DNA of 64,000 nucleotides from a candidate division WOR-3 bacterium (GTDB lineage Bacteria > Hydrothermota > Tepidihabitantia > Tepidihabitantales > CAIPLT01): the NCBI GenBank assembly GCA_039801505.1, contig JBDRUV010000001.1:339681-403680 (forward strand), in the 5' to 3' direction. Shown here in pieces: positions 10,957 through 22,530 of this stretch. Every line of letters starts with the position of its first letter. Position 1 is the stretch's first letter. The notes beneath the pieces are model-generated. The model was not told the DNA's origin and searched no databases. It saw nothing but the letters and a program-made list of their open reading frames with translations. The position numbers and the translations under genes were made by a program.

Positions 10957-13560
10957 ATGACTGAACAATTAACTCCGCTATTACAGCAATACCACCGGAT
11001 AAAGTCACGGTACAAGGATGCAATTCTTCTTTTTCGCATGGGGGATTTTTATGAAATGTTCTACGACGACGCTAAAATTGGTGCCAAGATTCTTGGTCTA
11101 ACTCTAACATCACGAAGTCACGGAAAATCGTCACGGGTTCCCCTTGCAGGAATACCGGTAAAGTCTATTGATAATTACATAGGGCGTCTTGTAGATAGTG
11201 GTCTAAAAGTGGCGATTTGTGAACAGTTAGAAGCACCGGGGGTTTCTAAATTAATTCGACGCGACGTTGTTGAAGTTATAACACCAGGGACAATATTACG
11301 ACCTGCTTTACTTGATGAACGAAAAAATAACTTTTTACTTAGTGTTGTTGCCGAGAACAATAATTGTGGTATAGCTTTTACAGATTTATCGACCGGTGAG
11401 TTTTATTTTAGCGAAATTAAATTAGAAGCTTTAAAAGAAACAATTCAAAAGTTAATGCCCAAGGAGATAATCATTCCTGATACTTGGGGGAATTTTTCAA
11501 AACATCTTGGAGATTCAATTTCTACTGCGATCTCGATGGTTGATAGTTACTATTTTTCGTATGAATATGCATCAGAAAAATTGAAAAGCCACTTTGGAGT
11601 GATTAGACTAGAAGGTTTAGGATTAGAGAACATGTGTTTAGCTACCGAAGCCGCCGGTGCGATTTTATACTACTTGGGCGAAACTCAAAAAACAGCTCTG
11701 CCACATATCAGAAGAATTAATCATTACCGAGATGATAATTATATGCTCATCGACTGGATGACACGGAAAAATTTAGAACTTACCGAGCGAATTCGTGATG
11801 GGTCTTCAAAAAATACACTTTTAGATATCTTAGATAGAACACAAACGCCGATAGGATCACGACTACTAAGAAAATGGATTTTAGCTCCACTTATTAATGT
11901 TGACGAAATAAAACTTCGACAGGATGCAATTGAAGAATTGTTAGCAAACCCATTTATGTTAAATAAATTAATAGAGATCTTGGGCGATATTGGAGATTTA
12001 GAACGAAATGCCTCCCGAATTGCGGTTGAACGAGCCAATGGCCGCGACCTTATTGCTTTAAAAAATTGGCTAAAAAAAATTCCAGAAATTAAACAAGAAA
12101 TTTCAGAAACAAAATCTGAATTGTTACAAAATTGCTTCTTAAAATTAGGCGATTTTTCTGAAGTTATCAAACGTATTGAGCAAACATTAAACGAAGAACA
12201 ACCTTTAACAATTACTGAGGGGGGATTAATAAAGAGGGGTTATTCGAAGGAACTAGACGAACTCCGTGACCTAGCATATTCAGCAAAGGAGCATTTAGTT
12301 GCAATACAACAACGAGAACGTGAAAAAACGGGCATTCCTAATTTGCGGGTTGGATATAATTCTGTGTTTGGATATTACATTGAAGTTACCAAGTCATATT
12401 TGAATTTAATTCCTAAACATTATATCCGTAAACAGACTTTACTTAACTGCGAGCGTTTTATTACACCAGAACTTAAGGAGTACGAAGATAAAGTTTTAAA
12501 TGCTGAAGAACGAATAAAACTCTTGGAGTATGAAATATTTACAGAACTTCGGAAAGCATTGGTAGCCGAAATTCCACAAATTTTAGATGGCGCCCGGATG
12601 ATAGCCGAATTAGATGTATTATGTAGTTTGGCAAAGGTAGCCCAAAGTAACGATTATACAAAACCGATTGTTGACAATTCAGATAAAATCGAAATTATTG
12701 ACGGGCGGCATCCAGTAGTGGAAAGAGTATCCAGCGAACCGTTTGTACCCAACGATACTTTACTTGATTTAACCAATAATCAAATTCTAATTATTACAGG
12801 GCCTAATATGGCTGGCAAATCTACATATCTTAGACAAGTTGCCTTGATTACCATAATGGCGCAAATTGGTTCATTTGTGCCAGCCCGCAAGGCACACATT
12901 GGAGTGGTCGATAAAATTTTTACTCGAATTGGAGCATCTGACGACCTAGCACGGGGTGTATCAACTTTTCTTGCCGAAATGATGGAAACAGCTAATATTC
13001 TTAATAACGCCACCCATAAGAGTTTAGTAATTCTCGATGAAATCGGACGGGGAACTGCCACATATGATGGTCTGGCTATCGCCTGGGCCGTAGTTGAGTA
13101 TTTTCATCAAAATTCAATAGCTAATCCACGTACACTGTTCGCTACTCATTACCATGAACTTACGGACATTGCAGAATATTTGCCACGAGTTAAAAATTAT
13201 AATTTTATTGCCCGAGAGACTAAAGATTCAATTGTTTTTCTGCGAAAGTTAACACCTGGCAAATCCGATCGGAGTTACGGGTTAGCAGTAGCAAAACTTG
13301 CTGGTATTCCTATTTCGGTGATCGAGCGAGCCAAAGAAATTTTGAAGAAATTAGAAAAAGCCGAAGAAATAAAATTGCATAGAGTAAGTTTCGACGAAAC
13401 TTCTGGGAAAGTTGATAATGCCCGTTCTTTATCGGTGGCCTTAAAATTAAAGGATGAAATTTTAGAAAAAGTAAGGAGGCTTAATATAAACGAATTAACA
13501 CCGCTTGAGGCGTTAAATTTTCTTTCAGAGCTTCAAGAAGAACTAAAAAATTTGGATTAA
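10957..13560 (+). CDS. mutS: DNA mismatch repair protein MutS
   Basis: 867 residues. The mismatch-reading motif appears as GDFYEMFYDDA, so the F-x-E pair is present. Walker A is GPNMAGKSTYLRQ and Walker B is VILDEIGRGTATYDG, followed by the ATHYHEL H-loop. Connector, core, clamp and helix-turn-helix domains are all covered. It finds mispairs and recruits MutL; no mutL is in the window. I see no clear sliding-clamp motif at its tail. EndoQ follows with its own promoter, so repair genes are adjacent. Confidence 0.97.
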   Translation: MTEQLTPLLQQYHRIKSRYKDAILLFRMGDFYEMFYDDAKIGAKILGLTLTSRSHGKSSRVPLAGIPVKSIDNYIGRLVDSGLKVAICEQLEAPGVSKLIRRDVVEVITPGTILRPALLDERKNNFLLSVVAENNNCGIAFTDLSTGEFYFSEIKLEALKETIQKLMPKEIIIPDTWGNFSKHLGDSISTAISMVDSYYFSYEYASEKLKSHFGVIRLEGLGLENMCLATEAAGAILYYLGETQKTALPHIRRINHYRDDNYMLIDWMTRKNLELTERIRDGSSKNTLLDILDRTQTPIGSRLLRKWILAPLINVDEIKLRQDAIEELLANPFMLNKLIEILGDIGDLERNASRIAVERANGRDLIALKNWLKKIPEIKQEISETKSELLQNCFLKLGDFSEVIKRIEQTLNEEQPLTITEGGLIKRGYSKELDELRDLAYSAKEHLVAIQQREREKTGIPNLRVGYNSVFGYYIEVTKSYLNLIPKHYIRKQTLLNCERFITPELKEYEDKVLNAEERIKLLEYEIFTELRKALVAEIPQILDGARMIAELDVLCSLAKVAQSNDYTKPIVDNSDKIEIIDGRHPVVERVSSEPFVPNDTLLDLTNNQILIITGPNMAGKSTYLRQVALITIMAQIGSFVPARKAHIGVVDKIFTRIGASDDLARGVSTFLAEMMETANILNNATHKSLVILDEIGRGTATYDGLAIAWAVVEYFHQNSIANPRTLFATHYHELTDIAEYLPRVKNYNFIARETKDSIVFLRKLTPGKSDRSYGLAVAKLAGIPISVIERAKEILKKLEKAEEIKLHRVSFDETSGKVDNARSLSVALKLKDEILEKVRRLNINELTPLEALNFLSELQEELKNLD

Positions 13561-13580: not shown

Positions 13581-13609
13581 TTGACAGGCCATAATTTCTC
13601 TTATAAAAT
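13581..13609 (+). promoter_or_regulatory. Promoter of the EndoQ gene, leaderless type
   Basis: TTGACA, a 17-base spacer, then TAAAAT, with the ATG seven bases later and no Shine-Dalgarno. The TTG inside the -35 box is in frame with the gene but is promoter, not start codon. Confidence 0.7.
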
Positions 13610-13616
13610 AAAACCA

Positions 13617-14867
13617 ATGGAAATAATCGCTGATCTACATATTCATTCTAAATTTTCGCGAGCAACAAGCAGTGATATGGTTATTAATTGCATTGCACAA
13701 GCTGCTCGAGAAAAAGGGATTAAAATAGTTGCTACAGGTGATTTTACTCATCCTAATTGGTTGGCACTACTTAAGGAAGAATTAAAAGAAGACAACGGCG
13801 GACTGTATAAATATGATGATATTTATTTTGTTCTTACAACAGAAGTGAATAATACATATTTTAAAAATGGAAAACTTCGTAGAATTCATAACATTATTTT
13901 TACTCCAAGTTTTAAGGATGCCGCAAATATAAATCGGTTTTTAGGTAAATACGGTAGTCTTAGTGCCGACGGACGTCCCACATTAAGCTTAGATGCGCAA
14001 AAAATGCTAGAGGGTATTTTAGAAGTAAGCCCTGACAGCTTCGTTGTACCATCACATATTTGGACGCCCTGGTTTTCTATTTTTGGATCAAAATCAGGTT
14101 TCGATTCTATCGAAGAATGTTTCGGAGAATTAAGTAATCAAATTTTTGCTTTAGAAACTGGTTTGTCATCCGATCCCCCAATGAATTGGATGCTTTCGAG
14201 CCTTGACCGATACACTTTAATTTCTAACTCCGATGCGCATTCACCATCGCGTCTAGGCAGAGAAGCCAATGTTTTTAGTTCATTGCTTAATTTTTACGAG
14301 CTAAAAGAAGTCCTAAAGAATAAAGATCGAGATAAATTTTTGTACACAATTGAGTTTTTCCCTGAAGAAGGTAAATATCATTGGGATGGTCATCGCCAAT
14401 GTAATGTGGTAATGAGTCCGGAGGAGGCCATCGCAAATGACGATTTGTGCCCAGTGTGTGGAAAACCTTTAACGATTGGTGTTGCGCATCGGGTTTTACT
14501 CCTTAGCGACCGTCCCAGTGGGTTTGTTCCGGAAAATTCAATTCCATATAAAAGTTTAGTACCCCTAGAAGAAATTATTGCCGAAGTAATAAAAACAACT
14601 CGTGATACTATTACTGTACGAAACATTTATTTAAGGCTTGTTAAGGAATTTAACGGTGAATTCAATGTATTGCTTCATGCTGATTTAGAAGCCATAAGAA
14701 AACATAGTAACGAGCGAATTGCCCGCGCGATTGAGTTAATGAGAGCTGGGAAAATAAACGTGAAGCCGGGTTACGATGGAGTTTTTGGCAAAATTTCTAT
14801 TAGCGACAACAATATGTTAAACCAGGAATCGCCTAGTGATAAAAAAGGACAATTGCCTCTTTTTTAA
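13617..14867 (+). CDS. Endonuclease Q-type PHP nuclease
   Basis: 416 residues. The PHP catalytic domain opens with IADLHIHSKFSRATS and continues with GDFTHPNW, VPSHIWTPW and SNSDAHSPSR, which provide the metal ligands. A zinc-binding segment follows (GHRQCN...LCPVCGKPL), then a helical C-terminal part. This is the EndoQ architecture, known mainly from archaea and a few bacteria; EndoQ nicks 5' of deaminated bases (hypoxanthine, uracil). The last five residues, QLPLF, look like a bacterial beta-clamp-binding motif, where archaeal EndoQ uses PCNA. Start set by the leaderless promoter and by homology at MEIIADLH. Lies directly after mutS. Confidence 0.85.
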   Translation: MEIIADLHIHSKFSRATSSDMVINCIAQAAREKGIKIVATGDFTHPNWLALLKEELKEDNGGLYKYDDIYFVLTTEVNNTYFKNGKLRRIHNIIFTPSFKDAANINRFLGKYGSLSADGRPTLSLDAQKMLEGILEVSPDSFVVPSHIWTPWFSIFGSKSGFDSIEECFGELSNQIFALETGLSSDPPMNWMLSSLDRYTLISNSDAHSPSRLGREANVFSSLLNFYELKEVLKNKDRDKFLYTIEFFPEEGKYHWDGHRQCNVVMSPEEAIANDDLCPVCGKPLTIGVAHRVLLLSDRPSGFVPENSIPYKSLVPLEEIIAEVIKTTRDTITVRNIYLRLVKEFNGEFNVLLHADLEAIRKHSNERIARAIELMRAGKINVKPGYDGVFGKISISDNNMLNQESPSDKKGQLPLF

Positions 14868-14873
14868 TTAATA

Positions 14874-15350
14874 ATGAAAAGAATTTGGGCCCCTTGGCGC
14901 AGTGTATACATAGAAGCAATTAGTACCAAACCCGCGAAAACAAAAAAGTGCTTTTTGTGTGCTAATAATAGTCTCTCCAATTTTTTAGTGGCCAAGGGAA
15001 CGCATGCATTTGTAATACTTAATCGTTACCCCTACAATCCCGGTCATCTTTTAGTGGCACCTTATCGTCATGTAAGTAGTATCGAACAACTTTCTGATAT
15101 TGAAATTTGTGAGATATTTAAATTAATCACCAAAAGTGTTAAAGCATTAAAAGCATCTTTCCAACCAGACGGATTTAATATTGGTCTAAATCTTGGCAAG
15201 GCGGGCGGCGCTGGCCTTGCTGGACATCTTCATTTCCATATTGTTCCTCGATGGATTGGCGATACCAATTTTATGGCAGTGCTTGCCGATACTAAAGTTA
15301 TTAATGAAGAGCTTAAAAAAACCCAGAAGAAATTGAAGGGGTTATTTTAG
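14874..15350 (+). CDS. HIT-family nucleotide hydrolase/transferase
   Basis: 158 residues with the histidine triad HLHFHIVPRW near the C-terminus and the N-terminal KRIWAPWRSVYI...CFLC typical of the bacterial/archaeal HIT branch related to Ap4A phosphorylase. These enzymes cleave or transfer nucleoside monophosphates from dinucleoside polyphosphates or related substrates. It begins six bases after the EndoQ stop with no strong ribosome site. Substrate not deducible. Confidence 0.88.
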   Translation: MKRIWAPWRSVYIEAISTKPAKTKKCFLCANNSLSNFLVAKGTHAFVILNRYPYNPGHLLVAPYRHVSSIEQLSDIEICEIFKLITKSVKALKASFQPDGFNIGLNLGKAGGAGLAGHLHFHIVPRWIGDTNFMAVLADTKVINEELKKTQKKLKGLF

Positions 15351-21831: not shown

Positions 21832-22530
21832 ATGGTGGTTAATTTTTATACCCTTATTAAAAGGCAAGAAGAAATTAGAGATAGAGTAATTATTACTAAT
21901 TTGTTGACAAGAATAAATTATGTCGGCGGAGCAGATTGTGGTTTTGATGACAAATATGTGTATTCTTGTGTTGTAGTCGTAGATATTAATGACTTATCAA
22001 TTATTGATTACGCCTTAGCTAAGGAATTAATCACTACACCTTATATACCAACCTTTCTATCATTTCGTGAAGAGGGAGCAATTATTAAAAGCTTCCGCAA
22101 CCTAAATGTAAAACCAGATGTTTTATTTTGTGATGGACAGGGGATTGCTCATCCCCGTCGCGCCGGACTTGCATGTGCAGTTGGGGTTAGGTTGGATATT
22201 CCCACCATCGGTATTGCCAAAACTAAATTGTGTGGGACTTTTTCAGAACTTAAAGATAGCACGGGTAGTTTTTCTTATTTGTATTACCAAAACATAAAAG
22301 TTGGCATTGTTTTAAGACCGCGGGCTGGCGTAAAACCAATATTTATCTCGCCAGGCCACAAAATAAACCTCGAGCAATCTTTCGACATCGTTAGAAAAAC
22401 TATCACTAAATACCGTATTCCCGAACCGTTACGAATTGCCCACACTTTTGCGAATTTATATAAACGAGGGAACTTTAACTTGCAGGAGTTTTATAAAAAG
22501 CGTTCGAATAAATTTAATGGGGTTATATAA
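21832..22530 (+). CDS. nfi: Endonuclease V
   Basis: 232 residues. The family motifs are present: GGADCGFDD (catalytic aspartate), FLSFREEGAI, LFCDGQGIAHPRRAGLA and IGIAKTKLCGT. Endonuclease V cuts the second phosphodiester 3' of inosine and other deaminated bases in DNA. Together with the EndoQ eight kilobases upstream, the genome has two enzymes for deaminated bases, a pairing known from archaea. It starts seven bases after glmS and converges with rsmA. Confidence 0.93.
   Translation: MVVNFYTLIKRQEEIRDRVIITNLLTRINYVGGADCGFDDKYVYSCVVVVDINDLSIIDYALAKELITTPYIPTFLSFREEGAIIKSFRNLNVKPDVLFCDGQGIAHPRRAGLACAVGVRLDIPTIGIAKTKLCGTFSELKDSTGSFSYLYYQNIKVGIVLRPRAGVKPIFISPGHKINLEQSFDIVRKTITKYRIPEPLRIAHTFANLYKRGNFNLQEFYKKRSNKFNGVI

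Follow-up and report, generated by a model that had tools for sequence, protein, structure and literature searches.

The 64-kb stretch of DNA from a WOR-3 bacterium analysed here (the window) encodes an active-looking bacterial EndoQ that is probably tethered by a flexible tail ending in QLPLF to the peptide pocket of its own sliding clamp, DnaN. That bacterial EndoQs carry a β-clamp tail is already known: a single sentence of Shiraishi 2016 describes β-clamp motifs at the C-terminus of these enzymes (PMC4858679). As far as the literature searched shows, what is new is the broad conservation of the tail, its contrast with the PIP-tailed archaeal enzymes, the existence of tail-less lineages, and a set of helicase fusions that carry two such motifs.

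A divergent EndoQ ending in QLPLF

We found that the window protein is EndoQ, matched across the whole length of its PHP, zinc-finger and C-terminal domains (Table 1). A phmmer comparison aligned it with PfuEndoQ (5zb8) at 2.4e-56 over residues 3-398, and Foldseek placed its predicted model (mean pLDDT 92.4, pTM 0.90; core mean above 90) on the same structure with a TM-score of 0.86-0.90; normalised by query length, TM-scores to PfuEndoQ chains were 0.84-0.87. The open reading frame runs from an ATG at 13617 to a TAA at 14867; an alternative, longer reading with a TTG start begins at 13581. Pfam was insufficient to identify the protein, giving only a PHP match with an E-value of 0.088. Because its TIGR00375 score (209.9 bits) lies below the cut-off of that model (326.6), we assign the window EndoQ to a divergent branch of the family.

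All nine active-site residues that we checked are kept: H8, H10, E76, H91, H147, G182, S184, D206 and H208 align, in that order, with PfuEndoQ H8, H10, E76, H84, H139, G169, S171, D193 and H195, and these positions are invariant across 135 aligned sequences. In PfuEndoQ, E76, H84 and H139 serve as metal-binding or catalytic residues, and G169 and S171 belong to the base pocket (PMC8307549). The zinc site retains three cysteines; the first PfuEndoQ cysteine is replaced in the alignment by a histidine, a plausible zinc ligand. With these residues in place, the window protein looks like an active bacterial endonuclease Q.

Table 1. Positions of endoQ, its sequence elements and neighbouring genes in the window.
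Feature	Position	Strand	Basis or remarks
mutS	10957..13560	+	Directly upstream of endoQ; MutS identity from sequence
endoQ homologue, 416 aa	13617..14867	+	PHP-type nuclease domain, zinc-finger domain, C-terminal domain, tail
EndoQ zinc-finger ligands H259/C262 and C278/C281	14391..14459	+	Alignment to PfuEndoQ C249, C252, C268, C271
Variable, mostly low-confidence linker, residues 400-411	14814..14849	+	pLDDT; length spread in relatives
QLPLF, predicted β-clamp-binding pentapeptide, exact C-terminus	14850..14864	+	Sequence; conservation in homologues
HIT-family hydrolase	14874..15350	+	Directly downstream of endoQ; HIT identity from sequence
Endonuclease V (nfi)	21832..22530	+	PF04493 match 5.3e-66; ORF

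The last five codons before the TAA, CAA TTG CCT CTT TTT, give a protein that ends in GQLPLF. The sequence-only reading had claimed that the nuclease closes with QLPLF, a fit to the QLxLF consensus of the β clamp, at an exposed end; the sequence and the low confidence of the predicted model in the tail both bear this out. The published consensus of β-clamp ligands is Q-φ-x-[L/M]-[F/L] (PMC11139829). In the model, pLDDT drops below 50 at residues 401-411 and 413-416, as a docking tail would show, and the 16-residue tail is probably flexible or disordered, leaving the motif accessible. A PIP box (Qxxhxxaa, with its aromatics three positions past the hydrophobic residue) is absent from the window tail, which stops at QLPLF.

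Such a short peptide could in principle be a functionless chance match, and in the DNA of this AT-rich genome QLxLF followed by a stop occurs barely more often than its reversed control (28 against 20 matches). Against this, EndoQ is the only one of the 28 matches that sits in an open frame of at least 60 aa. Similarly, EndoQ alone among the ORFs of 100 aa or more in the 64-kb window carries a C-terminal clamp-like motif. We reject chance, to which we give a vanishingly small probability, on the grounds that 53 of 61 diverse homologues carry the motif at their exact end.

Conservation of the tail and its predicted fit to the host clamp

Those homologues are non-redundant, single-domain bacterial EndoQs sharing less than 72% identity. 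From composition, only 0.01-0.02 of the 61 sequences would be expected to end in Qxx[LFM][FL]. The glutamine (-5), leucine (-2) and phenylalanine (-1) are each retained in about 85% of the 61 sequences, and at the seven positions that precede the motif no residue exceeds about 30%. Before the motif lies a linker of hypervariable sequence whose length in the relatives ranges from 1 to 47 residues (median 14), and the tails end in QLPLF, QMKLF, QMRLF, QLGLF, QLSLF, QKTLF and similar peptides. The codons for Q, L and F change synonymously between relatives while the linker diverges. Since Q, L and F persist while their codons change, next to a linker that is free to vary, we conclude that purifying selection acts on the short peptide itself.

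EndoQ is present in 108 of the 133 genomes of the window's phylum, yet the tail is not universal. A few homologues retain only the final LF (GLLF, ELTLF) or have lost the tail. A divergent EndoQ family within the same phylum (f11; L204-L208) ends right after the core and lacks the motif, as do two kinds of Cloacimonadota EndoQ that end directly after the core: L276-L287, which represent most of the EndoQs found there, and L273-L275. These lineages make the tail a trait of one clade rather than of all bacterial EndoQs. The comparison of bacterial tails proposed in the sequence-only reading thus has a divided outcome: the motif is conserved within the clade (53/61) but missing from f11 and from both Cloacimonadota kinds.

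The window genome encodes a single DnaN. At the 18 residues listed for the peptide pocket of E. coli β (PMC11139829), the window DnaN has 10 identical residues and four conservative replacements (L155I, V247I, V360L and M364I); T172, L177, P242, M362 and P363 are among these 14. Four pocket residues differ from those of E. coli (H175F, R176Q, Y323L and R365T), in addition to the non-conserved V344Q. By this alignment the pocket is largely preserved and compatible with a ligand of this type. The third position of the window motif is a proline. In the QPLLI peptide of E. coli MutL, a proline at position 2 holds the glutamine out of the pocket, and position 3 is described as tolerant (PMC11139829). 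The differing pocket residues and this proline weigh against docking, as does the absence of the tail from divergent bacterial EndoQs.

We propose that the EndoQ core, by homology, would nick 5' of AP sites and of bases altered by deamination (uracil, hypoxanthine, xanthine), and that QLPLF, at the end of its flexible tail, would dock in the DnaN peptide pocket. Tethering of this kind may both concentrate EndoQ on DNA that carries loaded clamps behind the fork and stimulate it there; the nicked 3'-OH could then be passed to a clamp-bound polymerase. By analogy, the arrangement with DnaN would be equivalent to that of the archaeal EndoQ PIP box with PCNA. In Thermococcus kodakarensis, EndoQ without its PIP box loses both PCNA binding (KD 55 nM) and stimulation (PMC4858679).

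A conserved tail might serve another role: it might fold onto the enzyme itself, contact a dimer partner or engage a different protein whose pocket is QLxLF-like. Clamp binding is itself a prediction, and the full motif cannot be indispensable, since a few homologues have only LF or no tail; both points leave room for such a role. We nevertheless consider it improbable: the tail is predicted to be disordered and unattached, its consensus is that of β-clamp ligands (PMC11139829), and the archaeal tail in the corresponding position has been proven, in T. kodakarensis, to bind PCNA (PMC4858679). Docking in the DnaN pocket is the reading we retain.

Tail type, host clamp and direction of transfer

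The sequence-only reading also held that archaeal EndoQ pairs with PCNA through a different peptide, and here it proved right: at the same place in the protein, 38 of 54 non-redundant archaeal homologues carry a PIP-type tail (among them QKSLMDF, QKTLSEF, QKGLSEF and QKGLSEFV), compared with none of the 61 bacterial ones. The two tail types can nearly coincide, as in QKTLF (bacteria) versus QKTLSEF (archaea). EndoQ occurs in 218 of 245 Micrarchaeota genomes, and most of these EndoQs end in a PIP box. Some from this phylum (L159, L170, L182, L201; L175, L186, L193, L198) have QKxL or short QRSLF/QKSLF-type ends that are not full PIP boxes, even though those Micrarchaeota hosts that were tested use PCNA. 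Across the 26 genomes tested, PCNA and DnaN excluded each other, and only PCNA hosts had PIP-tailed EndoQs. These data support the conclusion that the tail type, β motif or PIP box, follows the clamp gene of the host. The single apparent exception, an EndoQ with a β-type tail from an 'archaeon' MAG (L039, 3001-4242), was discarded as an archaeal enzyme: the contig also bears genes for ribosomal proteins L21 and L27, for SecG and further bacterial-type genes, and is therefore bacterial and misbinned.

In a tree built from 87 cores after long-branch sequences had been left out, a single branch (support 100/99) separates the bacterial from the archaeal tail-bearing EndoQs. The sequences thus support one crossing between domains, accompanied by one tail exchange. 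Because the tree contains only this crossing, the association of tail with clamp counts as one event and not many.

The direction of the crossing is harder to read. A tree with PfuEndoQ as its only root placed the bacterial clade (all bacterial sequences except f11, support 99) inside the archaeal sequences at moderate support (82-87). Adding the divergent Cloacimonadota EndoQs brought long branches together at the root and made the two tail-bearing groups, archaeal and bacterial, near sisters. The root, and with it the apparent direction, shifts once these tail-less bacterial EndoQs are included. The reverse course, in which a β-tailed EndoQ arose in bacteria and passed to DPANN archaea, where the tail became a PIP box, is compatible with docking and draws on the bacterial branches that then lie near the root. 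We regard it as unlikely, though worth keeping in view: the PfuEndoQ-rooted tree places the bacterial clade among archaeal ones, and an archaeal PIP-tailed ancestor is favoured by the presence of PIP-tailed EndoQ in Thermococcales and many methanogens (PMC4858679). On these sequences, transfer from archaea to bacteria is plausible. The earlier proposal that the tail was exchanged after transfer from archaea therefore stands as to the exchange, which falls on one strongly supported branch, and is plausible as to the archaeal origin, which moves with the root.

Helicase fusions, candidate repair partners and known systems

Among the homologues in the genome collection, 26 proteins of 803-1168 aa extend beyond EndoQ into a further domain (three run off the contig or locus). 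In the five scanned with Pfam, this domain is a UvrD helicase with both N- and C-terminal domains, and Walker A and B motifs are kept in all 26. By record name, the fusions come from Calditrichota, Cloacimonadota, Planctomycetota, Myxococcota, Thermodesulfobacteriota, Bacillota, Bacteroidota, Spirochaetota, Latescibacterota, Elusimicrobiota, Aerophobota and Aminicenantes; the loci include L060, L063, L073, L087, L094, L098 and L110. We found no mention of an EndoQ-UvrD fusion in the literature searched.

Every fusion with a complete end (23/23) has a clamp-type motif within 8 residues of that end. A second clamp motif lies at the EndoQ-UvrD junction in 17 of the 26, about 15 residues past the EndoQ core: the peptides there (QKSLF, QVSLF, QTSLF, QGTLF) occupy the spot where the unfused enzyme would end. 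The background rate of such a motif is 7% in random 45-residue stretches from the same fusions, and most of the further Cloacimonadota fusions retain the junction motif as well. The retention of a formerly terminal motif inside a longer protein is an added argument that the motif is functional.

No separate UvrD gene was found beside an unfused EndoQ in the loci examined, and in the window genome the one UvrD/Rep-like helicase with a readable end has no clamp tail. An endonuclease V gene lies 7 kb downstream of endoQ and is a candidate partner acting 3' of the same lesions; a search of the window genome (96% complete) gave no match to a UDG-family gene. A functional partnership with the adjacent MutS is unsupported, as the adjacency recurs only within the genus among the loci examined. 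Of 110 loci, 13 have a HIT gene close to endoQ, chiefly those of near relatives; it lies directly downstream in near relatives and also in L039. Searches with the window EndoQ or PfuEndoQ as query gave no match on plasmids or phages.

Published proposals for the step that follows the nick include strand displacement with Fen1. Joint incision by EndoQ and EndoV, followed by removal by a helicase, was proposed in 2015 (PMC4357722). We suggest, as a tentative reading that falls a little short of an even chance, that the fusions are one-protein, doubly clamp-tethered 'nick and unwind' machines in which repair would run through helicase strand displacement on the β clamp, the unfused EndoQ of the window using a separate clamp, EndoV and helicase. 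If this is true, bacterial EndoQ repair would go on with a helicase displacing the damaged strand on the β clamp. The clamp-matched tail and the natural fusions with two clamp peptides offer testable handles on this post-nick step.

The closest known relatives are archaeal PfuEndoQ and TkoEndoQ. The window protein is homologous to them along its whole length and has their fold, their residues at the metal site and base pocket and, by prediction, a C-terminal clamp-docking tail. It differs from them in ending with QLPLF instead of a PIP box for PCNA (QRTLLQYI, QRSITEFL), in having HxxC where their first zinc motif is CxxC, and in overall sequence (about 31% identity). The EndoQs of Bacillus pumilus and B. 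subtilis resemble it, by published description, as EndoQs in a DnaN organism; activity of the B. pumilus enzyme is cited as demonstrated in PMC6202378. Bacterial EndoQ has been described as confined to few groups (PMC4357722, PMC6202378), whereas the clade that contains the window protein spans many phyla. E. coli DNA polymerases II and IV and Pol III α likewise bear a QLxLF-like peptide in a flexible C-terminal tail (PMC11139829), but are polymerases, whereas EndoQ is a nuclease. The nearest parallel for the exchange itself is NucS/EndoMS, an archaeal-type endonuclease that has a PIP motif in archaea and [E/K][L/Y][T/R]LF in Actinobacteria, where DnaN binding, activity and the low mutation rate in vivo all depend on the C-terminal tail (PMC8228993). 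There, the replacement of a PIP by a β-type tail has been tested experimentally, in a nuclease of unrelated fold whose substrates are mismatches and whose products are double-strand breaks. EndoQ would join NucS as a second repair nuclease with a clamp peptide rebuilt for the clamp of the other domain.
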